Positions 4,161 to 34,818 of a stretch of 64,000 nt of DNA are shown here, piece after piece. Every line of letters begins with the position of its first letter. The stretch's first letter is position 1. Both the position numbers and the translations under genes were made by a program. This stretch comes from Amphibalanus amphitrite (lineage: Eukaryota; Arthropoda; Thecostraca; Balanomorpha; Balanidae): the NCBI RefSeq assembly GCF_019059575.1, contig NW_024882904.1:1-64000 (forward strand), given 5' to 3'. The notes under the pieces are model-generated. The model saw nothing but the letters and a program-made list of their open reading frames with translations, had not been told where the DNA came from and made no database searches.

Positions 4161-4279
4161 CAGCTGCTGTTGCGGACGGTCTCGGTTCGTCTTGACTGGA
4201 TTCCACGCGTGTGGTGGTACATGGTCACCTTAGCGTACGTGGACGGGTGCTCAGCCCCGCCGCCGCTGCCGCTGACACT
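4161..4279 (-). CDS. Synaptotagmin-like gene, exon with C2B strands 2-4 (partial gene)
   Basis: 119 bp, entered in phase 0 after TCCCACAG and left in phase 2 at G|GTGAGTCC. The translation includes HPSTYAKVTMYHH and SRRTETVRNSS, matching the SDPYVKIHLMQ and KKKKTTIKKNTLNP region of synaptotagmin C2B. The usual SDPY aspartate is replaced (HPSTY), and the polybasic patch is weak, so Ca2+ and phosphoinositide binding by C2B is probably reduced. The preceding exon ends in phase 0, as needed. Four 23-bp repeats begin 12 bp upstream of the acceptor. The rest of C2B was not found and probably lies beyond the window's left edge. Subtype of synaptotagmin is uncertain. Confidence 0.75.
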
Positions 4280-4291
4280 CTGTGGGACACA

Positions 4292-4383
4292 GTCAGCTGT
4301 CAGCTGGCACGGCCGTCAGCTGTCAGCTGGCACGGCCGTCAGCTGTCAGCTGGCACGGCCGTCAGCTGTCAGCCGACACGGCC
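4292..4383. repeat. 23-bp tandem repeat abutting a 3' splice site
   Basis: Four copies of a 23-bp unit (GTCAGCTGTCAGCTGGCACG plus GCC). On the minus strand it ends 12 bp before the acceptor of the exon at 4161-4279, inside the polypyrimidine/branch-point region. Confidence 0.9.
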
Positions 4384-4496
4384 GCACACATCGCGCCGAC
4401 ACGGCAGCGAGCCCAGTCGCGCTTGGTTACCCGCGCCCTGCTGGGTGTGAACTCACTGAACATCCCCCTGCGCTTTTAACACCTTGTTAAACACTT

Positions 4497-4595
4497 TCCT
4501 ACAAATGCGGTGAAAATTGCATACCAAGGTCACTCAAGGTCAGGTCACCAGGCCACGTCACTTGACCTCACCTCATAAAAAGAGTAAACCCCTAC
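4497..4595 (+). mobile_element. Family A fragment
   Basis: About 100 bp that match the subterminal part of family A (ACCAAGGTCA, GGTCAGGTCACCAGG, CTCACCTCATAAAAAG). Both ends are missing. It lies in the intron between the two C2B exons. Confidence 0.65.
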
Positions 4596-4629
4596 CATGC
4601 GTGCGTGCGTGCATATCACCGCTACCCAC

Positions 4630-4810
4630 CTCCAGCTGCACGGCCTCCAGGATGGCCACCGTGAGCCGCCGCAGGCCGGCGTTGTAGGTGAGGCCCACCA
4701 GCAGGCCGCCTGCCGTGCCGGCCGCCGGCGCCGCGGCCGCAGCCGCGCGCACGCAGCTGGTGCTCGCGCTGCCGGCGCTGCAGCCGCTGTCCAGCTCATC
4801 GTCGACCCGG
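4630..4810 (-). CDS. Synaptotagmin-like gene, C2A-C2B linker and C2B strand 1-2 exon
   Basis: 181 bp, phase 2 in and phase 0 out. Acceptor chosen at CTTCTCTCGGCCAG; an upstream in-phase acceptor would move the border to 4825. The donor is GAG|GTGGGT. The product has an acidic/Ser-rich linker (RVDDELDSG), an alanine-rich stretch, then GGLLVGLTYNAGLRRLTVAI, the typical first two strands of a synaptotagmin C2B domain. The alanine-rich stretch is GC-rich and unlike the surroundings. About 25 bp upstream of the acceptor begins the 31-bp tandem array, so the array fills the intron right up to the splice site. Identification as C2B is strong; exact acceptor is less sure. Confidence 0.8.
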
Positions 4811-4835
4811 CTGGCCGAGAGAAGACTGTCCCGGT

Positions 4836-7668
4836 CACCACCAGTACACTCCCCGCCCACCACAGACACCACCAGTACACTACACTCCCACCACAGACAC
4901 CACCAGTACACTACACTCCCACCACAGACACCACCAGTACACTACACTCCCACCACAGACACCACCAGTACACTACACTCCCACCACAGACACCACCAGT
5001 ACACTACACTTCTACCACAAACACCACCAGTGCACTACACTCCCACCACAGACACCACCAGTACACTACACTCCCACCACAGACACCACCAGTACACTAC
5101 ACTCCCACCACAGACACCACCAGTACACTACACTTCTACCACAAACACCACCAGTACACTACACTCCCACCACAGACACCACCAGTACACTACACTCCCA
5201 CCGCAGACACCACCAGTACACTACACCCCCACCACAGACACCACCAGTACACTACACTCCCACCACAGACACCACCAGTACACTCCCCGCCCACCACAGA
5301 CACCACCAGTACACTACACTCCCACCACAGACACCACCAGTACACTACACTCCCACCACAGTCACCACCAGTACACTACACTCCCACCACAGACACCACC
5401 AGTACACTACACTCCCACCACAGACATCACCAGTACACTAAACTTCTACCACAGACACCACCAGTACACTACACTCCAACCACAGACACCACCAGTACAC
5501 TACACTCCCACCACAGACACCACCAGTACACTCCCCGCCCACCACAGACACCACCAGTACACTACACTCCCACCACAGACAACACCAGTACACTACACTC
5601 CCACCACAGACAACACCAGTACACTACACTCCCACCACAGACACCACCAGTACACTAAACTTCTACCACAGACACCACCAGTACACTACACTCCAACCAC
5701 AGACACCACCAGTACACTACACTCCCACCACAGACACCACCAGTACACTACACTCCCATCACAGACACCACCAGTGCACTACACTCCCACCACAGACACC
5801 ACCAGTACACTACACTCCCACCACAGACACCACCAGTACACTACACTCCCACCACAGACAACACCAGTACACTACACTCCCACCACAGACAACACCAGTA
5901 CACTACACTCCCACCACAGACAACACCAGTACACCACACTCCCACCACAGACACCACCAGCACACTACACTCCCACCACAGACACCACCAGTACACTACA
6001 CTCCCACCACAGACACCACCAGTACACTACACTCCCACCACAGACACCACCAGTACACTAAACTTCTACCACAGACACCACCAGTACACTACACTCCAAC
6101 CACAGACACCACCAGTACACTACACTCCAACCACAGACACCACCAGTACACTACACTCCCACCACAGACACCACCAGTGCACTACACTCCCACCACAGAC
6201 ACCACCAGTACACTACACTCCCACCACAGACACCACCAGTACACTACACTCCCACCACAGACAACACCAGTACACTACACTCCCACCACAGACAACACCA
6301 GTACACTGCACTCCCACCACAGACACCACCAGCACACTACACTCCCACCACAGACACCACCAGTACACTACACTCCCACCACAGACACCACCAGTACACT
6401 ACACTCCCACCACAGACACCACCAGTACACACCCCGCCCACCACAGACACCACCAGTACACTACACTCCCACCACAGACACCACCAGTACACTACACTCC
6501 CACCACAGACACCACGAGTACACTACACTCCCACCACAGACACCACCAGTACATACACTCCCACCACAGACACCACGAGTACACTACACTCCCACCACAG
6601 TCACCACCAGTACACTACACTCCCACCACAGACACCACCAGTACACTACACTCCCACCACAGACACCACCAGTACACTACACTCCTACCACAGACACCAC
6701 CAGTACACTACACTCCCACCACAGACACCACCAGTACACTACACTCCCAACACAGACACCACCAGTACACTACACTCCCACCACAGACACCACCAGTACA
6801 CTACACTCCCACCACAGACACCACCAGTACACTACACTCCCACCACAGACACCACCAGTACACTACACTCCTACCACAGACACCACCAGTACACTACACT
6901 CCCACCACAGACACCACCAGTACACTACACTCCCAACACAGACACCACCAGTACACTACACTCCCACCACAGACACCACCAGTACACTACACTCCCACCA
7001 CAGACAACACCAGTACACTACACTCCCACCACAGACACCACCAGTACACTACACTCCCACCACAGACACCACCAGTACACTACACTCACACCACAGACAC
7101 CACCAGTACACTACACTCCCACCACAGACACCACCAGTACACTACACTCCCACCACAGACACCACCAGTACACTACACTCCCACCACAGACACCACCAGT
7201 ACACTACACTCCCACCACAGACACCACCAGCACACTACACTCCCACCACAGACACCACCAGTACACTACACTCCCACCACAGACAACACCAGTACACTAC
7301 ACTCCCACCACAGACACCACCAGTACACTACACTCCCACCACAAACACCACCAGTACACTACACTCCCACCACAGTCACCACCAGTACACTACACTCCCA
7401 CCACAGACACCACCAGTACACTACACTCCCACCACAGACACCACCAGTACACTACACTCCCACCACAGACACCACCAGTACACTACACTCCCACCACAGA
7501 CACCACCAGTACACTACACTCCCACCACAGACACCACCAGTACACTACACTCCCAACACAGACACCACCAGTACACTACACTCCCACCACAGACACCACC
7601 AGTACACTACACTCCCACCACAGACACCACCAGTACACTCCCCGCCCACCACAGACACCACCAGTACA
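4836..7668. repeat. 31-bp minisatellite array 1
   Basis: About 91 copies of a 31-bp unit (core CCAGTACACTACACTCCCAC), many identical, with a few variant units (CTTCTACCACAAA, CTCCCCGCCC, CAACACC) scattered through the array. Because 31 is not a multiple of 3 and no frame holds a stop, the array is open in long stretches and gives spurious reading frames of 350-550 codons. It lies in the intron upstream of the exon at 4630-4810. Confidence 0.97.
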
Positions 7669-7870
7669 GAAGTCTATTAAAAAGTCCCCAGCACCAGTGG
7701 GCGCTGCCTTCGCTGAGCCGAACCCCCGTCTGCCTGTCCCATATCGCGCCGGGCTCAGGTCAGGTAGGGTCAGCGGGACCGCTCGGTCCGGCCCGCGGGC
7801 GGTGGACGGGCGGCCGGTAACGCTTTCCGCCAGCCAGCTGTAGGATCCAACAAACGGGACGGCCACCGCT
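7669..7870 (-). other. GC-rich segment beside the array; possible extra exon
   Basis: On the minus strand there is an acceptor-like TTGGATCCTACAG at about 7845 followed by an open frame (WLAESVTGRPSTARG) in the phase that would follow the C2A exon at 21907. No convincing donor in the matching phase was seen, and the two C2 exons already join without it, so it is listed as a candidate only. Confidence 0.25.
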
Positions 7871-8699
7871 CAGCGCAGCGAAACCGGTGTTAAAGAATGG
7901 CAGTAGATGTTCATGGCCACAATGATTATGAGATAGTCATTGTTAGCCCGTGCCCCACAGGAATGCCTTGACACTCACGCCCTGTTGGAGGGGAAATGGG
8001 GATTGAGCATCATTCTTATAACTCAGCTTTGGGCATTTAAGGGGTATTCGAAGTAGCGTCAAAAGTAGCAAAAAGAAGAAAAAAATACTTCAGCCAATTT
8101 TGGATCGGGTCATAGCCAGAGGTCATGTCACTAGAGGTCATCGGTGGTAACATTTTGCTTAGACAGGGTGCGTTGCGCGCACCGGTGCATTGGGTTTCCA
8201 ATTTCCATGGAAACATCAACAGACTCGGAAGCTCGCAACGCTAGCGTGGAGCCGAATTCTTATTTCTTATCATCCGCCGCAACAATGCAGCAGCGCAGCG
8301 CAGCGTGCTGCAGCGCGGGGCCGTGAAACACCGCCCAGGGCTATCCATGTGTCAGGGCAATCCAACCCACGTGATAGGCTCGGCCCCAGCGGAGCATGAG
8401 GGCCAGGACTGCCGCCCAGGCCCCCTTCCCCCCCCCCTAATTCCACTCATCCTTCCCACTCTGAAATCGACCGAAGGAGCCTAACCTAACACAACAATCA
8501 GCTCGTTTACCGCTATGTCTGAATAATATTGCCAGATTTAATTAAGGTGAACGGCTTAGCATGTAAATAACAACAACTGCCACCATTGCTATTATGAGAA
8601 AACTAATTGCTTTTCCACAAACACTTAAAAGTTTTTAGCTAAACTTGCATGAAATTAATTTTACCAGCCTCGTGTTCCTCTTATCAAAACGCTTCGAAT
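7871..8699. other. Intron sequence, nothing recognised
   Basis: No tandem repeats apart from a short GCAGCGCAGC stretch at 8290-8310. No supported exon. Confidence 0.4.
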
Positions 8700-9740
8700 G
8701 AATCAAAAGTTGATCATTAAAGGTCATTTGAAAAATTTGGCCTATGTTCAAAGACATGACCTGACCAGAAATGGTCATAATGCATAGCAGGATATTAGAT
8801 TCGTATCGTGGAGCTTTACAAACACTTCAGATGATTTCATAACTTAAGCATGTCTATCAAAAATAATTATTACATGGCCCATATGTAAGATGGGTGTGTG
8901 AACATGCTTACGAGTATGTTGAACGCAACTGATAATGTTCTGTTGGCCACAATTTCTATATATAATTTATCCTCCCGGATTTCATATTTTTTGTTAATGA
9001 CACCTTGACGATGTCGAGAAAAAACGCTTAGTAGATTTAACAGCCTCAGATACATTCAGTATAAGGAAGGTTCAAGGGTGCTAGATTCCTTCCGTCCTCG
9101 CTATCCTCAGGAAAAACCAATCCGCATCGCCCCTAGTCTTCATGCTTCCCTCTCTGGACTGGAGGTCACCCCACCAGCCAACCTGTAGTTGATGTCGGAT
9201 CCATTCCAGGACACATCATCCTCTTCGGGTGACCGTTTGGGAGACGGCTGGACCGTCCCGACAGGGCAGTCGTCCCACGGGAACAGTCTCGCTTCCGCAG
9301 ATCACTGTCGCTGGCTCGCACAACCCAATTATTACACCAGAGCATGGTATGTATGTCATAGCTCTGCAAGGGCCTTTTCAGACCGAAAAAGATGGCCCCC
9401 AACAAAACAAACAATTTTCTCATTCAGTATTGTATCTCATCAAGCACCACATGTTTTCAGAGTGTTTATTATGCGTCCCGTAAAAAAGCGCAGTTCAATT
9501 TTCTCCCATTGACTTGAGCGATCTCAAAATTGACCCGGCCTTTCTGTCAACAATGTCAAACTTGCAAAGTAAACGTTTCAAATACATATACTGTTGCCCA
9601 TTAAAATCGTTGAAAGTTCTGAAGTGATCGGTTAGTCGGTGTATTTAGATATGATGAGCACAGGAATTTTCCTTGAGGTAAGGTCACTTGACGTGACCTG
9701 GTGTTATGACCTTGAATTGAAAGACTTGGGCATTTGAAAT
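8700..9740 (-). mobile_element. Decayed family A copy, interrupted
   Basis: 8700-8850 matches the family A segment around GACATGACCTGACC and ATTCGTATCGTGGAGC; 9455-9740 matches its later segment (CAATTTTCTCCCATTGACTT, GAGGTAAGGTCACTTGACG). The roughly 600 bp between (about 8850-9455) is unrelated and may be an insertion. Neither end is preserved. Confidence 0.6.
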
Positions 9741-9918
9741 CTTAAAATGCTAGATTTTAACAATAATTGCAAACACTATCCCGGCCAAATAGTGAGTGAG
9801 AATGGAGTGATTCCCCGACCCCATGTTTAGCTCCTATAATTGAGCTAGCTGCTAGAGCCTCGCGAAAAAAAAACGAGCGCTTGCGTCATTACGTGACGCA
9901 GCGACTGGTACCCCCATT

Positions 9919-11579
9919 TTAAAGGGACCCCCCCCCCCCCCGCCACCTTCAAAAGAGTCAATGAATTGGCATGAAAGTGATGTCGCTCGGTTCAGAAAGA
10001 GCAAAAACGAATATCTACCAAATTTCATCGAAAAATATTCACCGGTTTTCAAGATATTAGACCTTTACTTTTGTTTACTTTTTGGCATCTCCGCTGTTCC
10101 TAGCGACTTCATTTGAAAGTGCGGCACTTGTTGCGCGGAAAGCAGCGTATACCACCGCGTGCTACCAAACGTTTTAGTCAAAGATTTAAAATCGTTAGAT
10201 CTCCGCTGATGTCACAAATTCTAAGGGGGCATTCCAATGCATTAGCCCCTTAGAATCCGAAAACTGCAAGTTTGAATTGAAATTCCATTTCTCCGAATTA
10301 AAGCATTTTTCGATGTTGTGAGTGCCCAAACCGGTATTTGCAGGCCATGGCCACCAATTTGGCTATCTCAACTCAAAACTAATGTTAACCCGCGCCCCGT
10401 TGGGCTCTGCCGAGCAACGCGCCCTGTTGGGGGGGGGGGGGGCATTTTGGCCTCCCCCCTAAGATCTCGAGAACCACGCAACCTAGCGACAAGCGGCAAA
10501 CGGTGTTGGATAGCCCTATCAGGGAACTACCTTGAGACCCAATTTCATTGACCTCGGTCAAACCGATGACGTCACAGGTCAGGTCAAAGGTCCAATTTTC
10601 ACCGTTTATAGGCATTTCAAGAAATGCGTTGTAAAATCGAGTAAAATGCATTTCATTGAAAATCATCGATGGGGAAATGTTCTTCAAACACATATTTTGC
10701 TATTTGAGGTCACTGATACCAGGTCAGGTCACAGAGGTCAGGTCACGGGGGGGTCACAATATGAAAGTGTCGTGTGATACATGTTTTATGGTCCATTTTA
10801 CATGACAAATGCTATTTTGTTGGTCAGGCAGCCTTTGGGGTCAGCTTAGGTCACGTTTTGGTCAAGGTCAGGTCAAGGTCAGGTCAAATTAGGTCAAATT
10901 TCAAAGTTAATATTTTTGCATAAAATGGGTATTGAATCGATGCAGCTCTTCACGGGGAGTTCAATGGTGGTCTTTGTTTTGCCGTACGTGGTCTAGAATC
11001 GCTAAAAATTGAGTTAAAAAATTTGACGTCATCATTTTTGAACAGTTTTTTTCGCTATAACTTGGCCAAAAAACAAGATATCGATCTGAAATTTAGTATG
11101 TATATAGAAGAGCGCAGGGACTATCACATATATTCCGGTTTTTTCAAAATTCGGAAAGAATGTGGATTTTTTTTTTAGTTTTTCTAAAAAAAATCAATTT
11201 TTTGAATTTTTGGAGTCAAAAACTCATAATTTTGAAAATCCGAGATAGCAGTTTTGTAGCGCCGCTTTTTGTCTACTAGACCATATAAAGAACTTTGAAA
11301 TTGCTTGATAACTGTAGATTTGTTGAGCGTTTCAAGATTGCATGTTTTTTGCTCATTTTTGCTCGAACATGACCTCAGTTTGACCTCAATAACTCCTGAC
11401 CTAAGGTGACCTAAGACTTGAAATTTGGTGTGAAGGTGTCAAATTGATGCCCGGGAAGGTACTGAAAATTTGGCGGCGCTGCGCGCCGCCGTCTTCTGGC
11501 TATTCAGGAAAAACCACAGGGGGGGCCAAAATGGCCCCCCCCCAACGGGGCGAGGGTTAAGGTGGGATGGTCACTTTAA
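9919..11579 (+). mobile_element. Family E element, split by a family C insertion
   Basis: Ends TTAAAGGGACCC... (9919) and ...GGTCACTTTAA (11579), the inverted termini of family E. The body is 9919-10384; a complete family C element sits in the TTAA near the right end, after which the last 20 bp of E resume. Compare the intact copy at 55904-56381. Confidence 0.8.
10385..11560 (+). mobile_element. Family C TTAA element, complete
   Basis: TTAA at 10385-10388 and 11557-11560, ends CCCGCGCCCCGTTGGG and CCCAACGGGGCGAGGG, with G-run/CATTTTGG/C-run hairpins inside both. 1.18 kb, non-coding. Contains a dense run of AGGTCA half-sites at about 10845-10905 and at 10725-10760. Other copies: 57306-58014 (inverted piece), 58015-60937, and a fragment at 33181-33550. 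Confidence 0.85.
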
Positions 11580-12153
11580 AATATCAATGACCTCTTAGGG
11601 CAGGTCAAGGGCCACAAGGCATTTGATCGGTTTTTGGTTAATAGCTAAACGCATTATCGTCATTTCGATACAATCGTGTTTTCTGTTCTCCGACGCGTCG
11701 ATTTATATGCTTTTTTGTTTAGGTGAAGCAATTTAGGATGTTTACCTCAGGTCCATGTCATGTTAGAGCAACGCAAGTCACGAAGCTGTTGAAAGGAGGA
11801 CATGTTGCATAACATTTGATTCGGCAAGTCTTGCAAAGTCCATTGATGGCTGTCCCGACTGGCTAGCTCATTTTGACCGGGAGTTATTGACGAAGCACTC
11901 CTATGACCCTAAAGACGTCATTAATGACGTCACGCAAAGTGAACAATGCAAAAGTGAAGCATTAGACTTTGTCAAGAATGTATGAAGTCACGATTTCATG
12001 TGCTTGAGGTATAGTTTCAGATCATTTCCGACGCCAAATTAACAGTGTCCATAAGTTCCCCATTATGCTTATATGACACTAAGTGCATTGCGGATTGCAT
12101 CATTTTATAACCGACAACCGTGCAGAGGTTTACTTAAGAGTCATAGTTATAAG
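11580..12153 (+). mobile_element. Family D copy, left piece (continues at 13345-13506)
   Basis: Matches the left half of the full family D copy at 32109-33064 with much divergence. The family A element at 12154-13344 is inserted in it, and the right end resumes at 13345 and finishes CCGGCGAGGG-TTAA at 13503-13506. The left terminus is missing. Confidence 0.65.
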
Positions 12154-13344
12154 TTAACCCGCGCCCTGCTGGGGGGGTGTTTGAACACCCCCCCTTGTGG
12201 TTTTTCGCGAATATCTCAAAAACGGCGGCGCGGAGCGCCGCCGTTTTTGGTACACCTTATCATGCATCAATTCTACACATGTTGTGAAAATTTCAGACCA
12301 AGGTCATTCAAGGTCAGGTCACCAGGTCACTTGAAGTGACCTCACCTCATAAAAAGTTTCAATGTCTGTCATAGCTACACCGAGTGACCGATCGCTTTGA
12401 AACTTTCAGCGATTGCTAAGAGCAATAGCATGTACAAAATGTATATCTCAGAATTTTGATATCGATGACCTAAGGTCAGGTCAATTTTGCGACCTCCCCA
12501 TTATAAGTCAATGGGAGAAAATTGAAATGCGCCTCTTATGGATGAAAGACATTATAAACACTCCCAAACACCCAATTACAAGTGGTTTAGACACACTGAA
12601 CATGAAAATGGTGTCCGTGACCCTTGTTTTTGCCCTGAGGTCATCTTAGGTCACGAATGGTATCTAACAGTTTTTCGCAAATAACTTTTGATAGAGGCAT
12701 GCTAGAGCGATGAAAACGCCTTAGATGTGTTCAGCTCGACGATACGGATCGACTGATATGCAACATGACCCTTTCCGGTCAGGTCATGACCTTGACCTGA
12801 AGTCAAATTTTCAAGTTCACCTTTCAAGGTCAAGTTATAGTTCATTCGATGCGTCTTGACGAGAGGAACACGATGCCGGTAAAAGTAAGCTCGTACAGGG
12901 CTTGGGTCAAAAGTTATTGCAGAAAAACTGTTTCCGAAAAAATCGGCTATTTTTGCAGTTTTTGCCCCCTGCAGGCAAAACCGTTGACGTTAGGTCAAAT
13001 CTGAGAGAATTACTCAGAAAGGGCGTTAATAGGGCTATCGAATGCGCTTTTCCGCGGCGCTGTAGCTCTATTGGTTCCCGAGTTATGCGTTGGCTTCTTG
13101 GAAATTTTCGCCATTCGACCTGGAAATCGGCGAAATTTTGCCTTCAATGGCCTCTGGTGACCTGACCTTTGACCTGACCAAAAAATTGACCAAAGTGATT
13201 TCGTCATTATTTTTGACGCTCTTTCGAACGCCGCCTTCCGCGTATCGCTACGTGGCCCAGGAGCCGAGTTACAAGGGGGGGTGTTCAAACACCCCCCCCC
13301 AGCAGGGCGTGGAAATCCAGGACCCCCAGCCGGGCGCGGGTTAA
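12154..13344 (+). mobile_element. Family A TTAA element, complete
   Basis: TTAA at 12154-12157 and 13341-13344. The left end is CCCGCGCCCTGCTGGG with a GTGTTTGAACAC hairpin between G- and C-runs; the right end carries an extra inner copy of the terminal sequence. 1.19 kb without coding capacity. Interior rich in AGGTCA/TGACCT. Related copies at 19767, 40288 and 46048 share most of the interior. Confidence 0.88.
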
Positions 13345-13506
13345 GTGACCTGACCTGAAAACGTGGTTGATGTCAAGTGATCCGGCTTGAATGAAATGTA
13401 AGGCATGTGAAATGTCAGCCTTCTATCATCAGTGTGCTTTGAGCTACCGCAAAAAAAAATACATGGTGGCGGTATCCACCCCTTCTTCTCGGCCGGCGAG
13501 GGTTAA
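13345..13506 (+). mobile_element. Family D copy, right piece
   Basis: Matches the last 160 bp of the full family D copy (GATCCGGCTTGAATG, TCGGCCGGCGAGGG) and ends with TTAA. It is the continuation of 11580-12153 beyond the inserted family A element. Confidence 0.7.
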
Positions 13507-14092
13507 ACCTCGCTTCGAATTAATGCAGATAATGATGCGACCGAAAACAAAGCATTTATCTGTGTCTAGAACGGCCGCTGACTTGTTGGACAAGATCCCA
13601 ATGTTAATTCGCTAGATGGGAATAAAATACTCGGTATGTGATATATAGTTATACCCCTCGATTTGCCCTCGCGCGAAGTCTATTCTAATCATCACTGTCG
13701 CTTTTTTATCCGAGATGATGTCGCCGCTAAACGGGTTGTTTTGTTTGTTTGCTTGCGTTGAATGGCCATCACGGATTATTGAAGGATTACGATGAAATAG
13801 GATTGGGGCAAGGGAGGATATGCACTGCAGGTGTTTAATTTAGATCACAAAGGCATCATTTCCGCCTTCCGGCATCGTGCAGTCATTATCTTCTCCTCCT
13901 CTGCACTGTGGCATCTCTGCGCCCCACACACGGCGTCCTCACCCCACGGCCGGCCGCCGCCAACTGACCCACTCGCCGGGCGCCGCGACCTGACCCGTGT
14001 CGCTGCCGCGGCCTGCGCAATAGAGTCAGGGCTGGAATCCGGGGGTTCGGCCGGCCGGCCGCCTCTGGAGCGGGGGACTTTTTTAGTAGACC
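13507..14092. other. Intron sequence with a GC-rich segment beside array 2
   Basis: 13507-13900 shows nothing recognisable. 13900-14090 is GC-rich; on the minus strand it is open (RPAEPPDSSPDSIAQ) between a possible acceptor GCTCCAG and donor G|GTGAGG, but no domain is recognisable and its phase was not required by the gene model. Its right edge (GGGGGACTTTTTTAGTAGAC) resembles the edge of array 1 in inverse orientation. Confidence 0.3.
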
Positions 14093-15855: not shown

Positions 15856-15867
15856 TGTAGTGGTGGT

Positions 15868-24557: not shown

Positions 24558-24565
24558 CAACTCAC

Positions 24566-24659: not shown

Positions 24660-24760
24660 CTGGCGGGCGCATAAGGTCAGCGGTCAGCGGCTGAGGCCTG
24701 TCGGGCCAGCAGTCAGCAGGCCAGCTAACCAGTTTCTCGACATCCAAGGGGCATTCACCC

Positions 24761-25022: not shown

Positions 25023-25023
25023 A

Positions 25024-25206
25024 TTCACCCTCGACTGTGTGCGGCGTTTTCCAGCGTCTAATGTGTAGGGGGGGGGGGGGCGGTTGGACGGACACACCCT
25101 GCCGTTCGGCCCCTGATCAAGCTAGAGCTTTGCGGAAAAAAACGAGCGAGTTGCCCTTGACGAGAAGAAGCCCATGATACCCAAATTTAATTTCATAGGT
25201 GATTGG
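25024..25206 (+). mobile_element. Family J left-end fragment
   Basis: Matches the start of the family J copy at 58289 (TGTGTGCGGCG, TCTAATGTGTAGGGGG, GATCAAGCTAGAGCTTTGCGG). The TTAA is decayed to TTCA. At about 25207 the sequence switches to family A, so the junction is chimeric. Confidence 0.65.
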
Positions 25207-25730
25207 TAGACCTTTCAAGGTCAAGCTATAGTTCATTCGATGCGTCTTGACAAGAGGAACACGATGCCGGTAAAAGTAAGCTCGTACAAGGCTTGGGTCA
25301 AAAGTTATTGCAGAAAAACTTTCCGAAAAAATCGGCTTTTTTGCAGTTTTTGCCCCCTGCAGGCAAAACCGTTGACGTTAGGTCAAATCTGAGAAAATTA
25401 TTCAGAAAGGGCGTTAATAGGGCTATCGAATGCGCTTTTCCACGGCGCTGTAGCTCTATTGGTTCCCGAGTTATGCGTTGGCTTCTTGGAAATTGTCGAC
25501 ATTCGACCTGGAAATCGGCGAAATTTTGCCTTCAATGACCTCTGGTGACCTGACCTTTGACCTGACCAAAAAATTGACCGAAGTGATTTCCTCATTATTT
25601 TTTACGTTCTTTCGAACGCCGCCTTCCGCGTATCGCTACGTGGCCCAGGAGCCGAGTTAGAAGGGGGGGGTGTTCAAACACCCCCAGCAGGGCTTGGAAA
25701 TCCAGGACCCCCAGCCGGGCGCGGGTTTAA
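25207..25730 (+). mobile_element. Family A right half
   Basis: Nearly the same as 12820-13344, from GGTCAAGCTATAGTTC to GGGCGCGGG, ending in TTAA (25727-25730). The left half is replaced by a family J piece. Confidence 0.75.
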
Positions 25731-26096
25731 GTACTCATCTGACTAAGCGTCTCGTCGCGTTCTTGTTGTTCACCTCAGGTAATGATCAGGGCAGAGCCAC
25801 TCAGTCCACGAAGCTGGCCCAAAGTGGTCATATAGCTTATTCGATTCGGTAGGTCCTCACAAGTCCTTTGGTGGCTTCCCGACTCGCTAGCTCAATTTGA
25901 TCGGGACTTTTTTGGTGAAAACTCCTGTGACCTTAGTGACGTCATAAATGGAGTCGCCTAAGATCAAGAATGCAAAAGTAAATGCTGGGGCTCGCAAAGA
26001 TTGTATAATATCACGAATTAATGCGCTTGAGACAGCTTTAGACGGCTCCCGGCGCCAAAATAACAGTTTTCATATTTCCCCAATGATTAACCCGCG
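25731..26096 (+). mobile_element. Family D copy, left piece (continues 27095-27528)
   Basis: Matches the middle of family D (GGTGGCTTCCCGACTCGCTAG, split here: GGTGGCTTCCCGACTC then GCTAG). Interrupted by the family H element at 26097; D resumes at 27095 with CGTGAGGTTGCG and AAATACGAGATAAC. Confidence 0.6.
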
Positions 26097-27094
26097 CACC
26101 GACGGGGGGGGCGGATATCCGCCCCCCCTGAGGTTTTTCGCGAATAGCGGGAAAACCGCGGCGCGTAGCGCCGCGAAATTTGGTATGACTATAACCTCAT
26201 CAATTTTACACATGGTGTGCAAGTTTGAACCTCCTACCGTTTAAGGTCAGGTCACCAGGTCATTTTGAATGACCCAACCTCAAATCACTTTTTTGCAACT
26301 TTGTGACCGTGCCAGAGCTACAGTAGATGTCGGAAGCCTTTGAAAGTCGCAGGATATTATAAGGTCATTTGTAGCTACAATTTGTATATCTAGGAATTTT
26401 CATATCGGTGACCTAAGGTCAGGTCAATTTCGCGACCTCCCCATTATAAGTCAATGGGGGAAAAATCAACTCCCTGTTTTTACCACTAAAACGGGTCGGA
26501 ATGGCCCCATATACCATACATGACTTTATATACGATCAACCTTCACTACCTTGAGGTCTGTTTTGCTGACGGGCAGCTGTGAGGTCATGTGACGTCATCA
26601 AAGGTCACCAAAGGTTTTTGGCCAATAACTCCGTACAGGAACAAGATACAGACGCGTGGATGGTCTCATTGTGTTCAGCTCGTCAAGACGCATCGAATGA
26701 CATACATGATGACCTCGAGGTCACGTGACCTGAGGTCAACCTTTGCCCTTGACCTTTCGAGGTCAACATATATATCATTCGATGCGGATTGACGAGAGGA
26801 TCACGATGATGCCCTTAGTTTGTTCCTAGCTTGACTAATTCGAAAGTTATTCGAGAAAAAAACTCTCTCCATATCTAGCGCCGCCATTTTGACTTTTTCG
26901 ACCCCTGTGACGTCATCTTTGACCTGACCTGAAAATGACCTTTGTAAAAATTGTAGATCTTGGCCGTGCGTATCCGATGCCGTTTACCGCTTGTCGCTAT
27001 CTTGCTTCGTTCTCGAGATCTCAGGGGGGCGGTCATCCGCCCCCCCCCCCGTCGGTGCGAAGTTGGCGCAGACCCCCGTCGGTGCGCGGGTTAA
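26097..27094 (+). mobile_element. Family H TTAA element, complete
   Basis: TTAA at 26097-26100 and 27091-27094. Ends CCCGCGCACCGACGGGG and CCCCGTCGGTGCGCGGG, with G-run/CGGATATCCG/C-run hairpins. 998 bp, non-coding, interior related to families A and D (GGTCAGGTCACCAGGTCA at 26245; TGACCTAAGGTCAGGTCAA at 26409). Confidence 0.85.
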
Positions 27095-27528
27095 TAATCG
27101 TGAGGTTGCGTGACCGACCTGACTTCAGGTGACTCTTAAGAAAAATACGAGATAACTACATACAAGTTGTGAGGCCTCTAGGAGATAGTATGTACCTACT
27201 GTGTAGATCATATGTATTTATCATATGATCATATATCATATGATCGTGTATTTTGTGTCATATTAGGTCCACTGTATTGATCGATCTTATTAGGTGTCTT
27301 TTATGAAGTGTTCATTGTGTGCTCATATTGCATTGTATATGACGAAGGTCGCAGAATAGCCCTGCACCAGTGGAGCGACCTTATTCGGTAAATACATACA
27401 TACTGTGTAGATCATATAAGATTCATAACCCAGTGAAAGGTCCCCTGGCACGATGGGTGTTGCGACGTTGCGACATTTTGGGACCTTACAGAGGTTCACT
27501 TTTAACGTCATTGGTCAACGGCCTGACC
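27095..27528 (+). mobile_element. Family D copy, right piece, with an AT-rich insert
   Basis: D-like to about 27180 and again from about 27420 (GAAAGGTCCCCTGGCACGATG). Between them is an AT-rich insert with TGTGTAGATCATAT at both sides (27199 and 27411) and ATATGATCATAT palindromes. Family J begins at the TTAA at 27529. Confidence 0.55.
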
Positions 27529-28325
27529 TTAACCTTCGCACTTATAAGAGGGTGTCGAACAGACGCCCCACTCTTAGTTTTTCGCAAACAACTCGCGCAA
27601 AAAGCGGCTGTTCTCGACGAAACTTTCAGTACCCTCGAGTTAATCAATATTACGCCTATCCTTAAAATTTTTATGACCCTAACCCAAAAGACCTTTGACT
27701 TGTGACCTGTTTTCCAAGACCATGTTTGGTCGGAATCGCGATTTAGCGTATTTCGGCTCACATTAGGAGCGCGTTTATTGTCTTTTTGTGGCTTTAAGCG
27801 ATCAAACATATGAAAGGAAAGGATGTTGATCCATGGATTCTAGTGGGTGTCAAGATCACGTGAAGGTCAGTCAGGTCACTGACCTTTGATGACCTTAGTT
27901 CACTGCTTCGAGTTCTATATGTTTCTAGGGTAGGTTTTGGAGTTGATTTCGCATTTAGAAACCGTTTGAACATTTACGAAGTAGTTTTGGTTCCCTCGTA
28001 ACATGTGACCTGATGCACGAAAACATCATCTGTGATCAAAACTAACTTGAAATTCGTGATTAGCACCCCCGCAAAACCTTATAACAGCCTCACTTAAGAA
28101 GCTTTAACAGGTCCCGATTTTCCCGACTTTTGAGTATATATTGACCTATCAACAAATGACCTAGGACCTTAAACTTGGGTATCAACGGCCTCCTTTCGTC
28201 ACGGGCAACACGCTTTTTTTCCGCGAAGCTCTAGCTCGATCAGGGGCTGAACGGCAAAGGGGTCCAACGGACCCCCTCCCCTTTACGCTAGACGCTGGCA
28301 AAACACCAATATGCGCGAGGGTTAA
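27529..28325 (+). mobile_element. Family J TTAA element
   Basis: TTAA at 27529-27532 and 28322-28325; ends CCTTCGCACTTATAAG and CCAATATGCGCGAGGG. 797 bp, decayed compared with the copy at 38517-39410. Contains a perfect AGGTCACTGACCT palindrome at 27873-27885. Confidence 0.78.
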
Positions 28326-29194
28326 AGGTAGTGTGCCACCTTTGAAAGATTTCCCATTTTATTTTTCCTAGGATCAGAAGCTTCTGTTTTTACCTAATAT
28401 CGCAAAAAAAAAAATCAAAAATGGGCCTGGAATAGTGCCTTTTTCGCCTAAAAGTTTTTCGGTTTTTAGATATGTATAACAACTGTAGTGGGCTCACCTG
28501 CAAACAGGCGTCGGGCAACAATCGCGAATGCGGCGCACTTGTGACAATAAGCAAAGGTCATTATAGTGTTGCGACCATACGACGTACGGGAATGAGTTAT
28601 CAGCTGTCTAATCGTAGACAACACAATGTCGAGCCTTAAACTGTAAGCCCGTATTGGTATTGTTTCTTTTATTTGGCTGTCGAACATTATTTATGGTTTG
28701 AAATATGATTTTATGTAAAATAATTGATATGAAAAAGCCGTCAAGTATAAGTTATGACCCCATTTCACCACACGCAAGTGGCAGAAATGACAATGATCAG
28801 CTGACGCATTTTTCTTGGCCGAAGTCAGAGCGCGCGGCCCGACGCACCACGCGTATTTGGAAATTCCGACCTCGACGAGCATCAGAAGCCACCTAACAGG
28901 CGTGTTCGAAACCGCAGGAGATGATGATGAACGGGTTTATCGAAACTTGATTGGATGAGCATATCGGTAATAGCGATTTCAGTGTGTGCATTTATTGTTC
29001 ATAGTGGTGTGAAATGTGGTTGGGGTACGACCGACAACCCGTCGGGGCGAATTTCGCACTGGGGTACTCAAAATTTGAAGAATTTAAGACGTTTCCATGA
29101 GTTTTGAAGGTATGGATAAGTTCTAAAAATCCGGTTCTCCTTATCTGGGCCATTAACTCCATACGGTCCAGGAAAGCTGGCACACTACCTTTAA
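28322..29194 (+). mobile_element. Family G TTAA element, complete
   Basis: Ends TTAAAGGTAGTGTGCCA and its inverse (TGGCACACTACCTTTAA) with TTAA at both sides; it shares its left TTAA with the family J element before it. 873 bp, non-coding. A second copy lies at 61744. Confidence 0.83.
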
Positions 29195-29790
29195 AATACA
29201 GCAGCTGTCATACAAAGTCGGCTGGAATCAAAGGTCAGGTTTGCAGAATTTCAGCTCTCGCAGCAAATAGACAATGGTCGAGACTGTCGTCAGCCGCGGA
29301 CGCACACTCGACCAACTCTCCAAGCCCGTTGACTGCAGGTGACCTTGACATGTCAAGCCTGATCGGCCGCCGGCCGCTGTCGTGCGGTCGTTACACGCAG
29401 AGGGGAGGGAGACACAAAGCTCTACGTTATAGCTGACCTCTGACCTTTCCCCGTGCCCTGGTCATTGAACCCGCTCCATGCCGCTGGGCGGTGGCATGGC
29501 GGTGGAAACTGGTTCTAGCCTCTATACATGCCACCATTCTAACGCTCCCCTCCCCACGCTACTACGCGGCGTGGAGTACGCTCGTGCGTAACTGGGCGGA
29601 GCAAGGGGCCACGCGATACAGGGGCGGAACTGGTTGCCCTCCCGCTGGCCGAGCGACCAACGAGTAACGACTAACGACCCTGTAGAACCGTACGTCCGCG
29701 CTTGTTCGTTTCGCCGGTTGACCCCCCTCCCCCCCCCCCCCCTATAAGTGCGGGGTCAACACTCGCTCTGGTCTGGTGTCGTCAGTTTGC
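29195..29790. other. Intron sequence, GC-rich in part
   Basis: 29225-29260 matches a small piece of family D (GGAATCAAAGGTCAGGT). The rest is unassigned, with a C-run at 29724-29744 and no supported exon. Confidence 0.35.
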
Positions 29791-29799
29791 ATCGAGGAC

Positions 29800-29967
29800 C
29801 TGATGACCGGGCTGTGGTCTGACCGGGCCCTGCTCTGACCTCACCTGATGACCGGGCCCTGCTCTGACCTCACCTGATGACCGGGCCCTGCTCTGACCTC
29901 ACCTGATGACCGGGCCCTGCTCTGACCTCACCTGATGACCGGGCCCTGCTCTGACCTCACCTGATGA
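29800..29967. repeat. 29-bp tandem array containing repeated 5' splice sites
   Basis: Five copies of a 29-bp unit (CTGATGACCGGGCCCTGCTC plus TGACCTCAC), continuous with the end of the exon at 29961-30084. On the minus strand each copy repeats the exon end CCCGGTCATCAG followed by GTGAGGTCAG, giving five candidate donors 29 bp apart (about 29960, 29931, 29902, 29873, 29844). The unit differs from the 32-bp array at 21717, but both share CATCAG|GTGAG. Confidence 0.93.
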
Positions 29968-30084
29968 CCGGGTCACAGGAGTCCGGCTCATCTCGACTTC
30001 TCTGCGGCAGTTTCTTGGCCTTGATGATGGTGACGGTGAGCTTCTCTTCTGAGGCGGTGTAGGACACAGATAACCACAGCCGAC
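29961..30084 (-). CDS. Synaptotagmin-like gene, first C2A exon
   Basis: 124 bp, phase 1 in (GTGCGCAG acceptor) and phase 2 out (ATCAG|GTGAGG). Translation: GRLWLSVSYTASEEKLTVTI, then IKAKKLPQRSRDEPDSCDPV. This is the classic opening of a synaptotagmin C2A domain (GRLQFSLDYDFQNNQLLVGI in the family). The CDP aspartate of Ca2+ loop 1 is present, but the earlier ligand (LD in family members) is not obvious. The previous exon ends in phase 1 with a G that completes the Gly codon, so the junction reads ALGRLWL. Both splice borders lie inside tandem arrays. The acceptor nearest the exon body was chosen; four further copies lie upstream. Confidence 0.87.
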
Positions 30085-30240
30085 CTGCGCACAGGACACA
30101 GGTGTAACCATAGCCGACCTGCGGCACAGGACAGAGAGAACCACAGCCGACCTGCAGCACAGGACACAGGTGTAACCACAGCCGACCTGCGGCACAGGGC
30201 GGCACAGGACACAGACAACCACAGATGACCTGCGGCCAGG
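30074..30240. repeat. 33-35-bp tandem array containing repeated 3' splice sites
   Basis: Five copies of CCACAGCCGACCTGC with spacers of 33-43 bp (30079, 30113, 30146, 30181, 30224). On the minus strand each copy holds GCAG followed by GTCGGCTGTGG, i.e. an acceptor plus the first codons of the C2A exon (GRLW). Confidence 0.9.
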
Positions 30241-30605
30241 GCTGGGAAATCTCTCATACTTCAATGCCCCAGTAGTTAGCAGATACCGCTTTATTATTCC
30301 AGCAGAGTAGCAGAATAAGCATTTCTCTCTTTCGCTCTATTTGCCATCAGGAAATAACATAGGTACAACAAAAAAAAAGATATTGAATCAAGCATACTTG
30401 TAAAGCAAAAGCTCCTACTGCATGCGTGTGATCTCCCATGACAAATAAGAGCAAAACATTGTGAAACGCTTAACAAGCCGGACTAGAACAGCCTGCTGTT
30501 CCGGGACGTGGCGGACGCCAGGTCCTGGTTAGTCCTGATTCTGAACATGCGCCGTACGCGGGCAAAGCCAAAGAACCGGACCCCAAACTCCACATCACTG
30601 GAGCG
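30241..30605. other. Intron sequence, nothing recognised
   Basis: AT-rich to 30475, then a GC-rich stretch open on the plus strand (30480-30605) with no known similarity. Confidence 0.4.
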
Positions 30606-31447
30606 TTAACCCGGCAGTTGCTGGGGTATTTCGCCACCCACCGTTTGCTGGGGGGGGGGGGGGCGTTAAACGCCCCCAGCCGATAACTCGAGAACCAATA
30701 GGCGCAGCGAAACGCACGAGGCGGCAAACGAAAGAGCGCGACGAGACACTTCAGATGAGTATTTTAAAGTCGAATTTTGAGGTCACAGGTCGGGTCAAGG
30801 TCAGGTCAAACACCTGAAATCGGGCTTTCAGTAGCATGGACTTCAGGACTTCGCAATGGGCGCCTCTCGCCATAAACTCTGTCAAAACGGTGCACAATCC
30901 ATCTTTTAAGGCCTACAAGAGTGTCAGCTCCATGTAGGGGTCAGTCAAGCATAGGTCAGGGTCAAGGTCAGGTCAACCGGGTAGGCACATATCCCCGAAA
31001 ATCAAAACTGATATTCGCAGCCTGTGACACATGTTTTATAGGCAATTTGGGGCGTAGAACACGATGGTGACATTCATTTTATCATATGTGTACGTGTTTG
31101 GCTCAAAAAGTTCAATTTAATAAATTCATGTATCATGGTCGTGAAGTAGTCACGAAAAATTGCCAAGATTCAGTTCCAGATTATGGAAAATACGGAACGA
31201 TAATCAATAATCGAAGATAGACATTTGATTAATCATGGTATTGGCAGTCGAATGGCGTTTACGGCATGTCTGTATGTCTGTTCTGTGATTTTATATGATT
31301 TTTTGAACATATGCCGTTTTTGGTCGAAAACTCAGAAATCATGACGTCACTAAAACCTCGATATCTCAAAACATTTCCGACCGATTTTTTTGAAACTTTG
31401 TCACAATAAACTTCAATCAATTCCCTGCAGGTACCCAAAATTTGGCT
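30606..31447 (+). mobile_element. Family B element, right end missing
   Basis: Starts TTAA-CCCGGCAGTTGCTGG at 30606 and follows the 16242 copy closely until GGTACCCAAAATTTGG at about 31447, where the match stops about 60 bp before the expected right terminus. Confidence 0.82.
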
Positions 31448-32108
31448 CGGCGGCCGACCTGCCTGTGAGGAGCTGCTGGCCCGGCGGCTGACGCATGTCG
31501 GCACCATCTGATCACCACTCGTCGGCGCCTACCAGAGCAGGCGAACAAGACGGATGGCCGCCAGGAGCACTCCACGAGCTTGTACTGGTCGGAAAACATC
31601 ATGCTGGCCTCCATAGGCGTAGGAACGTTTTCGAAAGTGTGGGGGGGGCAGGGTCCCAGAGGTCCAAAACCTAACCTACCCCCAAAATCCAATTTCTCCT
31701 CGGATTTCGGCCACTTTGTTTTCGCAGCATGCTCAGAGGTAAAAAAAAAAATCGAGACAAAAACGAAAACAAAATTGGTTAAAATTTCAGGGAGACTCCC
31801 GTCCAAAAACTCAAACTATTAACTGATGGACGGACGCGTTCCCCTGTCCTCCGCAGCCGTTGTCACCCATGCAAATTCCAGAGGCATCCAGCAACTTTTC
31901 CATTACGAGCAAGCGTGAAACGTGCAAAGCGAGTCTTTTCAATATAGGTACCTACCTATAAAAAGCAGCATGAACGGCCCAGCTAGTCTCAGCCAGGCCT
32001 ATAACGTTTTTAAAAGGTTTATATCAGCCACCACTGCAACTGGGCTGATTGACTATCAGAGGCCGGTGTGGGACTTTTAGAGGCCGGTTTGGGCCCTCAG
32101 AGGCCAGT
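31448..32108. other. Intron sequence; weak exon-like segment
   Basis: 31448-31640 is GC-rich and open on the minus strand (SDQYKLVECSWRPSVLF) but lacks a domain match, and neighbouring exons already join in phase. 32050-32108 repeats AGAGGCCGGTTTGGG three times. Confidence 0.3.
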
Positions 32109-33064
32109 TTAACCTTCGACCTATAGGACCTATAGGTTTTCTACATACGCGCCGGCCGAGGGGGCGGGGGGCGGGTACATCGGCGAATTTAAGGTCCTAG
32201 GTCACCCGGTGACCTCTGAGGTCAGGTCAAGTGCCCCAAGGTACGATTCAGTTTTTGGTGAATAACTTCGCAAAAATGGCCGCAGAGCCGCGATTTTGGC
32301 AGCATCGTGTTTGCCTCGCTCAGGCGCGTCGAATGGTATACTTTTTGTTCGGGTCAGGTCAACTTGGGGTGTTGACCTCAGGTCAAGGTCAGGTCAGCAA
32401 CCCCAGGTCACGAAGTTAGTCGAAAGAGGTCATGTCGCATATCATTCGATTCGGCAGGTCTTCCTGAGTCCATTGGTGGCTTTCCCGACTCGCTAGCTCA
32501 ATTTGATCAAGAGTTATTGACGAAAAACTAATATGACCTTGATGACGTCATAAATGACGTCACGCAAGGTCAACATTGCAAAAGTGACGCATCTTACCTT
32601 GCAAGGAGTGCATCAAATCACGATTCTGTGTGCTTGAGATAGTTGGACATCGTTCCCGGCGCCAGAATAGCAGTTTTCATTTTTCCCCGTTGACTTATAA
32701 TGGTGAGGTCACGAAAATGACCTGACCTCATATGACCTTTAGGAAAAATCCGAGATAGACAAGTTGTGAGACTCGTAATGGATACTAGATCCTGCAAGTT
32801 TCATTTCCCTGTGAAAGCTCCTCTGGCAGTGAGGGCGTTGCGAAGTTGCGACATCTGAAGACCGTGCAGAGGTTCACTTATGACGTCATAGGTCAGTGAC
32901 CTGACCTGACCCGAAAATGCAGTTGGTGTCAAAAGATCCGGTTTGAATCAAAGGTCAGGTATGCCAAGTATCAGCTCTCTATCATTAGCGTGTTCGGAGC
33001 TATCACGAAAAAACCCTAGGGGGGGGGGGCACCCGCCCCCCCCCCCTCGGCCGGCGAGGGTTAA
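32109..33064 (+). mobile_element. Family D TTAA element, complete
   Basis: TTAA at 32109-32112 and 33061-33064; right end CCTCGGCCGGCGAGGG with a G-run/CACCCGC/C-run hairpin. 956 bp. Contains paired TGACGTCA-type sites near 32543-32563 and a perfect AGGTCAGTGACCT palindrome at 32890-32902. No coding capacity. Confidence 0.84.
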
Positions 33065-33180
33065 GTGACCTGGGTCTAAAATTTTCACAGCATATGTAGA
33101 AACGATGTATGATAATGTGTGCGAAAAACTGCAGAGGAGTGGTGTTCAACCACATACACCCCCAGCAGGGCGCGGGATAA
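33065..33180 (+). mobile_element. Family A right-end fragment
   Basis: From GTGACCTGGGTCTAAAATTT to CCCAGCAGGGCGCGGG, ending ATAA in place of TTAA. The family D element before it appears to be inserted in this copy. Confidence 0.65.
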
Positions 33181-33553
33181 GAGCCAAAGTTATTTTTTCG
33201 AAATTCGAAAAAGGAATATATATGATAGTCCCTACCGTGTTCTGTCCAGATACCGAATTTGGGACCAATACCTCATTTTTGACCAAGTTATAACGAAAAA
33301 AAAACTTTTGAAAATTGATGACGTCAAATTTTCCAAATCAACTTTTAGCAATTCTAAACCTCGTAGCGCAAATAAAGACCACCATTAGAATCCCCGTGAC
33401 GAGCTGCATCGAATCGATACCAAATGTATGCAAACACCAAATTTCAAATTTGACCTAATCTGACCTGACCTTGACCTAACCTTCACCAGAGCATAGTCTA
33501 AATTGGCCCCAAAGGCTGCCTGACCCACATAATCGCATTTGTCATGTAAAACG
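33181..33553 (-). mobile_element. Family C interior fragment
   Basis: Matches 57680-58015 in the same orientation (AACGAAAAAAAAACTTTTG, GACGAGCTGCATCGAATCG, TGACCTGACCTTGACC). Both termini missing; a family T end follows at 33554. Confidence 0.7.
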
Positions 33554-33712
33554 GTTAGCCCGGCGGCCGCTGGGCCTCCGCGCCACCCGCCGGCCACTGG
33601 GGGGGGGGGGGGCATATAGTTGCCCCCCCCCCCTTTACCTCTGCGACGAATGACGATATCGTCGCAACGCGAGAAGATAGAGAGGCGAAACTTTGCACAC
33701 ATCCTGAAAGGT
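33554..33712 (+). mobile_element. Family T left-end fragment
   Basis: Begins TTAG-CCCGGCGGCCGCTGGG with a long G-run/CATATAGTTG/C-run hairpin and follows the 497 copy to about 33712. Right part absent; the 26/17-bp array follows. Confidence 0.75.
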
Positions 33713-33754
33713 TCTGACTGACGGCGACTGGTCAATATGTGAGAGCTGTTGTCG

Positions 33755-34705
33755 GCCGGCTGCCCGCCGGTATATGGGGCTGCCCGGGCTGGCCGGTATA
33801 TGGGGCTGCTCGGGCTGGCCGGTATATGGGGCTGCTCGGGCTGGCCGGTATATGGGGCTGCTGGGGCTGGCCGGTATATGGGGCTGCTCGGGCTGGCCGG
33901 TATATGGGGCTGCTCGGGCTGCCCGGTATATGGGGCTGCTGGGGCTGGCCGGTATATGGGGCTGGCCGGTATATGGGGCTGCTGGGGCTGGCCCGGTATA
34001 TGGGGCTGCTGGGGCTGGCCGGTATATGGGGCTGGCCGGTATATGGGGCTGCTGGGCTGGCCGGTATATGGGGCTGCTGGGGCTGGCCGGTGTATGGGGC
34101 TGCTGGGGCTGGCCGGTATATGGGGCTGGCCGGTATATGGGGCTGCTGGGCTGGCCCGGTATATGGGGCTGCTGGGGCTGGCCGGTATATGGGGCTGCTG
34201 GGGCTGGCCGGTATATGGGGCTGGCCGGTATATGGGGCTGCTGGGGCTGGCCGGTATATGGGGCTGGCCGGTGTATGGGGCTGCTGGGGCTGGCCCGGTA
34301 TATGGGGCTGCTCGGGCTGGCCGGTATATGGGGCTGATAGGGCTGGCCCGGTATATGGGGCTGCTCGGGCTGGCCGGTGTATGGGGCTGCTGGGCTGGCC
34401 GGTATATGGGGCTGGCCGGTATATGGGGCTGCTGGGGCTGGCCGGTGTATGGGGCTGCTGGGGCTGGCCGGTGTATGGGGCTGCTGGGGCTGGCCGGTAT
34501 ATGGGGCTGCTGGGGCTGGCCGGTATATGGGGCTGCTGGGGCTGGCCGGTATATGGGGCTGCTGGGGCTGGCCGGTATATGGGGCTGCTGGGGCTGGCCG
34601 GTGTATGGGGCTGCTGGGGCTGGCCGGTATATGGGGCTGGCCGGTATATGGGGCTGCTGGGGCTGGCCGGTATATGGGGCTGGCCGGTATATGGGGCTGC
34701 TGGGC
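33755..34705. repeat. 26/17-bp compound minisatellite
   Basis: About 38 units, most 26 bp (GGCCGGTATATGGGGCTGCT plus GGGGCT), mixed with shorter 17-bp units (GGCCGGTATATGGGGCT). Open in several frames on both strands, giving spurious proteins rich in YMGLLGLAGIWG or APYTGQPQQPHIPA. On the minus strand it starts about 18 bp after the donor of the exon at 34723-34818. Confidence 0.95.
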
Positions 34706-34722
34706 TGGCCCGCTCCGCTCAC

Positions 34723-34818
34723 CGAGTGCGGCGTGCTGCTCCGTCTGGTCGTCCTCGGTCTGGTCTCCGTCCGTCAGCCGGTATAGGTCCGGGTCCAGCC
34801 GTCCCAGAGCCGCTCTCT
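34723..34818 (-). CDS. Synaptotagmin-like gene, exon with GRLDPDLY linker motif
   Basis: 96 bp, phase 1 in (GCTCGGCAG acceptor) and phase 1 out (CTCG|GTGAGC). Translation: RAALGRLDPDLYRLTDGD, then QTEDDQTEQHAALG. The G(R/K)(I/L).P(E/D)LY motif just before C2A is characteristic of several synaptotagmins (for example the 3/5/6/10 group), and the acidic tail is typical of the linker. It joins in frame with the C2A exon at 29961 and with the Ser/Pro-rich exon at 35342. It has GC-rich codon use, like the other exons of this gene. A 26/17-bp minisatellite follows its donor almost directly. Confidence 0.8.

Follow-up and report, generated by a model that had tools for sequence, protein, structure and literature searches.

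Minisatellite-like tandem duplications of intron–exon boundaries have been described in the globin genes of amphioxus, where they were named mirages, with Adh3 as a further case (excerpts of PMC3087553) and TnC and PGBD5 as others (excerpts of PMC3902484). According to these excerpts, the tandem units in Adh3, the globin genes BflGb6 and BflGb9, TnC and PGBD5 extend across exon–intron boundaries, on the 5′ as well as on the 3′ side, AG/GT signals are carried by many of the units, and the authentic boundary is kept; Adh3 and reverse-transcription PCR (RT-PCR) data suggest that splicing is normal (PMC3087553). Unstable length, either somatic or between haplotypes, is a further trait of mirages, and variable copy number is reported for Adh3. 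A related process, i.e., intron gain via tandem duplication, is treated in a potato study that cites 24-bp AGGT arrays in fission yeast (PMC4974935, in excerpt) and in a Drosophila study (PMC2891723, in excerpt). Here, we report on a stretch of 64,000 nucleotides of Amphibalanus amphitrite (Thecostraca; Balanomorpha), contig NW_024882904.1, positions 1 to 64,000, hereafter called the window, in which most tandem arrays lie on or close to the predicted splice sites of one synaptotagmin-like gene and some of them copy the junction itself. These arrays are probably mirage-type minisatellites, that is, local tandem duplications at pre-existing splice junctions that would be tolerated since the exon-side copy is spliced. 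The first-pass annotation of this stretch had known of no described system that seeds minisatellites at splice junctions, a view that the amphioxus mirages overturn.

Tandem arrays and splice sites of the synaptotagmin-like gene

The gene lies on the minus strand, where eight exons were placed over the span 4161–54902 by their similarity to C2 domains, their GT/AG sites and the phase of their reading frames, in a search that began from open frames with C2-like residues. When joined, the eight exons can be read through 357 codons in a single frame without a stop, and Pfam recognises two C2 stretches in the product (E 1.1e-23). An early join of exons A to E was matched to synaptotagmin-1, with its C2A part (query residues 1–124) aligned to both C2 domains of that protein. 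A Pfam C2 match at 21906–22055 covers the exon B region, and another, obtained in a frame in which stops were read as X, led to exon A2. The placement of the three C2A exons (A, A2 and B) is firmly anchored. The introns of the gene reach 19 kb, and the one between exons D and E measures 350 bp. The exons, in gene order, are as follows.

54718–54902, minus strand: exon G, a Ser/Pro-rich linker, placed by phase and splice consensus; both borders are free of an array
35342–35473, minus strand: exon F, placed by phase and splice consensus; a TG-rich tract (35493–35540) precedes the acceptor
34723–34818, minus strand: exon C (RAALGRLDPDLYRLTDGDQTEDDQTEQHAAL, immediately before C2A), placed by its phase 1 join to A; no homology match of its own
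29961–30084, minus strand: exon A, C2A start, placed by the synaptotagmin match of the early A-to-E join (E 1.2e-20) and by Pfam C2 on the final join
24566–24659, minus strand: exon A2, C2A middle, placed by Pfam C2 (E 0.0086), sequence and phase; both borders are free of a minisatellite
21907–22049, minus strand: exon B, C2A end, placed by Pfam C2 (E 0.0042) and by Pfam C2 on the final join
4630–4810 (alternative in-phase start 4825), minus strand: exon D, C2B start, placed by phase, splice consensus and weak C2 similarity of the D–E join
4161–4279, minus strand: exon E, C2B, placed by phase, splice consensus and weak C2 similarity of the D–E join; the donor is free of an array

The array set consists of the merged Tandem Repeats Finder (TRF) arrays with a score of at least 100 in the whole window, and an array was counted as near when it lies on one of the 16 splice sites of the eight exons or at most 30 nt away from one. 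Eight arrays were obtained, all of them inside the gene span.

33766–34710, minus strand: 26/17-bp array, TRF scores up to 1217; its upstream end lies on the donor side of exon C, 13 nt away from the final exon base
30061–30242, minus strand: ~35-bp array (68-bp double) spanning the exon A acceptor, identified by TRF, sequence, candidate acceptors and unit-versus-exon shuffles
29820–29972, minus strand: 29-bp array that extends across the donor of exon A, identified by TRF and donor count
22069–22216, minus strand: 20-bp array that stops 20 nt short of exon B, identified by TRF and CTRAY count; a branch-like segment, CTCTGA, is present in most units
21724–21930, minus strand: 32-bp array that extends across the donor of exon B, identified by TRF and donor count
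14097–15854, minus strand: second 31-bp array (TRF), with the same unit as the array at 4836–7668, 6 kb from any placed exon
4836–7668, minus strand: 31-bp array of 91 copies (TRF), ending 26 nt before exon D (11 nt with the alternative start)
4292–4384, minus strand: 23-bp array (TRF) ending 13 nt before exon E, with two CTGAC per unit

Seven of the eight arrays are near a splice site, occupying seven of the 16 sites (C donor, A acceptor, A donor, B acceptor, B donor, D acceptor and E acceptor) and touching five of the eight exons (C, A, B, D and E), with distances between the array edge and the exon-border base of 0, 0 and 0 (the spanning arrays), 13, 13, 20 and 26 nt. The first-pass annotation had placed arrays on or near the splice borders of five of eight exons, which is borne out well above chance, and every array that it named (23, 31, 32, 20, 29, ~34 and 26/17 bp) is recovered by TRF. 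Its assignment of the 26/17-bp array to a splice border holds for the exon C donor, which the array adjoins with its end at 34710, and fails for the position that it gave, 33755, where neither a C2 match nor a phase-consistent exon was found, C joining A in phase 1.

The excess near splice sites was evaluated against a null in which each array is reduced to a point and inserted into the gene span cleared of arrays. For the eight exons, the probability that at least seven of eight arrays fall near by random insertion is 1.2e-11, and it is 2.1e-7, 2.6e-6 and 2.8e-5 when insertion is confined to local GC of at least 0.55, 0.60 and 0.65, respectively. An earlier seven-exon set (span 4161–35473) gave 2.5e-10, with 5.6e-8 outside dispersed repeats and 6.3e-5 outside dispersed repeats at GC of at least 0.55. 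With the anchored exons A, A2 and B alone, four of eight arrays and four of six sites are near (P 3.1e-7 or 3.1e-6, depending on the span; 6.7e-5 or 3.7e-4 at GC of at least 0.60). In a permutation variant of 100000 draws, in which a long array swallowing an exon was scored as near, at least seven of eight was reached in 0 (uniform) and 3 (non-dispersed) draws at the 30-nt cut, while the five of eight observed at a 15-nt cut was reached in 87 (uniform) and 639 (non-dispersed) draws. When the TRF score is lowered to at least 50, 8 of the 18 arrays in the span are near splice sites (expected 0.38), and the excess persists across TRF thresholds from 50 to 200 and with both starts of exon D. Tandem repeats (period at least 7, seven exons) cover 50–59% of the intronic bases that lie up to 100 nt from a splice site, compared with 20% of those more than 800 nt away, every distance bin being weighted heavily by long arrays.

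Splice signals copied by the arrays

Direct reading of the letters establishes the arrays, their positions and, relative to the predicted junctions, the copying of a junction by three of the eight, i.e., a donor twice (A and B) and an acceptor once (A). The 29-bp unit at the exon A donor is CCGGTCATCAG/GTGAGGTCAGAGCAGGGC (the slash marks the junction), and its donor CAGGTGAGG occurs five times, letter-perfect. The 32-bp unit at the exon B donor is CACCAACGCCGTCCGGGACATCAG/GTGAGCCG, with six donors that score 7–8 of 9, four of them identical; donor-like nine-mers with a score of at least 8 number 29 on both strands of the whole window, the array donors counted in. At the A acceptor, the ~35-bp unit presents GCAG/GTCGGCT four times, the exon-side copy counted, and once in a diverged form, GCAG/GTCAT. 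This unit shares 13 identical bases with the start of exon A, followed by CTGTGTCCT, a match that none of 2000 shuffles equalled, and the portion past the first 13 bases was matched as well in 7 of 2000. The array beside the C donor contains no donor with a score of at least 7.

The acceptor-side arrays at E and B carry another signal, CTRAY, the consensus of a branch-point-like motif. It occurs eight times in the 126 nt before the E acceptor and seven times in the 167 nt before the B acceptor, compared with a minus-strand rate of 0.42 per 100 nt, and the closest copies start 16 nt (E) and 22 nt (B) from the acceptor. Four and three copies were counted in the 101 nt before the C and A2 acceptors, respectively, and one before G; none was found in the 158 nt before A or in the 101 nt before each of D and F.

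Weaker repeats also lie at most 30 nt from other splice sites, namely the TG-rich tract that lies 20 nt away from the acceptor of F (TRF about 47–56), a 10-bp repeat of 2.2 copies near the F donor (TRF 44) and a 7-bp repeat of 2.3 copies before the A2 acceptor (TRF 32). Small duplications around CTGAC are present at two acceptors that have no strong array, A2 (24675–24690, CCGCTGA about twice) and C (34833–34855, CTGACGCTG twice), and these are perhaps incipient arrays.

Pairwise comparison of the array units by a shuffle test found 18 of 21 pairs unlike. The remaining three stand at or below 0.013 of shuffles, namely the two donor units (0.003), which have the donor signal in common, the B acceptor and A donor units (0.01), and the B donor and A acceptor units (0.013). 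Elsewhere in the window, with up to five substitutions allowed, no unit recurs except the 20-bp unit, which has four weak matches, and the 31-bp unit, which has its second array. Since most units are unrelated and are not found elsewhere in the window, the arrays are compatible with local creation repeated independently. The claim of unrelated units and repeated creation made in the first-pass annotation stands to this extent, with the 31-bp unit, which forms two arrays, as the part that does not.

The extra copies would differ in what they do to the protein. All nine alternative donors (the second to fifth at A, four sites, and the second to sixth at B, five sites) run into a stop because AGG TGA sits at the junction, and three of the four upstream acceptors of A also give stops, the fourth (30186) staying in frame and adding 34 residues. 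Because the other copies meet stops, the exon-side copy is predicted to be the one that makes the expected protein, save for the in-frame upstream acceptor 30186.

In a separate observation on the 26/17-bp array, 33766–34710 is open in all three minus-strand frames because its unit lacks stop codons, and read-through of the C donor would append a long proline-rich repeat tail.

Origin of the arrays

As in the excerpted accounts of amphioxus mirages, the tandem units at the A acceptor, A donor and B donor span the exon–intron boundary, both 5′ and 3′ boundaries are hit, and AG/GT lies within units; the spanning arrays have units of 29–35 bp and the Adh3 mirages units of 10–72 bp. In contrast to the mirages as there described, seven of 16 inferred splice sites of a single gene are affected here, and four arrays lie beside the junction without the boundary-spanning anatomy. 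With respect to authentic splicing, which the mirages are suggested to retain, the exon-side copies here give a C2-matching open frame, and one upstream acceptor also stays in frame. Ordinary intronic minisatellites share with these arrays the 20–35-bp units, the 4–91 copies and the fair homogeneity; unlike them, the arrays here are placed at splice borders above chance, and three copy the splice signal.

If the arrays are mirage-type, a short tandem duplication would arise locally at a splice junction already in place, and the duplicated unit would then expand via slippage or unequal exchange. A duplication covering the junction would be nearly harmless because exon-side splicing restores the old mRNA and the remaining copies stay in the intron. 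Duplications within exons would disrupt the frame and be purged, mobile elements would overwrite deep introns, and GC-rich exon rims may receive added duplication input.

Several points weigh against this account. The P values are descriptive, since they come from a single gene chosen post hoc for its pattern, and they climb from 1e-11 to 6e-5 (4e-4 for the anchored exons alone) with GC and repeat controls. Nine of the 16 splice sites have no minisatellite, including both borders of the firmly placed A2, and four of the seven near arrays, the one at the C donor and those at the acceptors of B, D and E, stand beside the junction and not across it, so that strictly they are no boundary duplications. 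The 31-bp unit also builds an array far from exons (14097–15854). As to the gene model, we infer exon use for all eight exons from sequence features; exons G, F and C have phase and splice consensus in support and no homology match of their own, and the C2B exons D and E are weakly anchored by homology, their join matching a synaptotagmin IV C2 domain (E 0.0067) and, below the curated cut-off, Pfam C2 (E 0.0019), with zero Pfam matches for either exon on its own.

A lesser but real possibility is that composition and survivorship produced the pattern, i.e., that minisatellites arise in any old GC-rich DNA, that exon rims alone are old and GC-rich here, and that the link to splicing is incidental. 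The GC content is 0.48 over the whole window, 0.47 in non-array windows, 0.56–0.78 in seven exons (G excluded) and 0.54–0.70 in the arrays, and at least 27.5 of the 64 kb is self-similar dispersed sequence; the weakening of P to 6e-5 under GC and repeat restriction points the same way, as does the 4e-4 that the anchored exons give when GC is at least 0.60. However, the excess survives at GC of at least 0.65 (2.8e-5), and three arrays are centred on the splice signal. Of 3949 GC-rich positions more than 60 nt from splice sites, 1 has the insertion point of an array at most 30 nt away, a near-circular control that was not counted. GC content and mobile-element turnover account for part of the excess and, on these tests, not for all of it. 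The first-pass annotation had also offered the preservation of exon-proximal unique sequence as an explanation, which is insufficient as a full one because the excess persists among non-dispersed positions (5.6e-8).

It is doubtful, though conceivable, that the exon border is itself a mutational hotspot in this lineage, with a transcription- or splicing-linked process (junction nicks, R-loops or repair) repeatedly seeding copies of donors, acceptors and branch points. If it were, splice-signal arrays would be expected genome-wide and would continually give rise to alternative splicing and to the sliding of introns.

Selected reinforcement of splicing, in which multiplied donors and branch points aid exon recognition amid very long introns, seems unlikely. 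It would suit the strong donors repeated at A and B, the density of CTRAY before E and B, and also before C and A2, and the 19-kb reach of the introns; however, CTRAY is absent before A, D and F and single before G, the C-donor array offers no donor with a score of at least 7, use of the extra donors carries the cost of stops, and the 350-bp D–E intron has an array too.

Intron gain through tandem duplication of AGGT segments (the Rogers model), with the arrays as birth scars of introns, is more improbable still. AG/GT is found at the junction in all three spanning arrays, and duplications of this type are reported to create introns in Drosophila (PMC2891723) and, according to a citation in PMC4974935, in fission yeast. 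In both those cases and potato, as excerpted, and in the arrays described here, segments bearing AG/GT or a splice site are duplicated and unused copies are intronic. In contrast to that model, in which both intron ends derive from copies of one segment, the array here stands at one end of a long intron, with no sign of a new intron. What counts against intron gain is that the splice site at the other end of each intron lacks the unit, the three spanning units having no copy outside their own arrays (up to five substitutions), and that the introns concerned are 4.6–17 kb long; the intron places in C2A presumably agree with those of SYT1, so the introns look old. The least probable source is mobile-element cargo, i.e., internal repeats of transposons landing by chance near exons. 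In its favour, the 31-bp unit, alone among the units, recurs in a second array; the two arrays each adjoin a similar TCTAYTAAAAAAGTCCCC stretch, oppositely oriented, the flank similarity being short, and dispersed repeats lie in some array flanks (to the right of position 15854, to the left of 33766 and in the interval from 4384 to 4836). Against it, three units match their own exon border and none of the 12 flanks searched resembles the flank of another array, except for the shared stretch 4385–4835.

If the array density found here is typical of the genome, natural splice sites would be copied 4–6 times in cis, and such sites would test how the spliceosome chooses among identical sites and how prone exon borders are to tandem duplication. 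The mirage-type interpretation could extend mirages, so far reported from amphioxus in the excerpted papers found, and feed the tandem-duplication model of intron change.

Further features of the gene and the window

No further C2 exon was found in the minus-strand frames of 2–4161, 7500–14002, 13900–21732 and 30240–34720, the region upstream of exon C lying outside the scan, and A2 was the sole exon recovered in the minus-strand scan of 22060–29813. The C2B end was not found in the minus-strand scan, 2–4161 included. Since these scans gave no further C2 exon and the region upstream of C was not covered, the C2B end may be absent or too diverged, and the set of 5′ exons may be incomplete. A phase +1 intron located at strand 3 of C2B is described as a signature of Syt genes (PMC2823689, in excerpt), and no counterpart of it was matched in the present gene model. 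A GC island at 13861–14131, beside the second 31-bp array, was tried as an exon and rejected, with no Pfam match on the minus strand. Rfam and tRNA scans of the window gave no matches.

Around the two 31-bp arrays, the TCTAYTAAAAAAGTCCCC-like stretch abuts each array, at 7669–7700 and 14070–14096, in opposite orientation relative to the array, and beyond these stretches there is patchy similarity (GCCGAACCCCCG), not significant in blastn at 1e-3. A dispersed repeat at 15873–16154 lies 19 nt right of the second array and has an inverted copy near the window start (3082–3362, 89% identity).

Motifs resembling AGGTCAAGGTCA or AGGTCAGGTCA are abundant window-wide on both strands, many of them within dispersed repeats, and a GC-rich inverted repeat with long arms (foldback) was spotted by eye at 61990–62360. 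The G–F intron holds a BEL/Pao retrotransposon frame at 49961–54196 (Peptidase_A17, 7.3e-43) and, at 41695–44346 on the minus strand, a LINE-like frame that encodes a reverse transcriptase (RVT_1, 1.5e-31).

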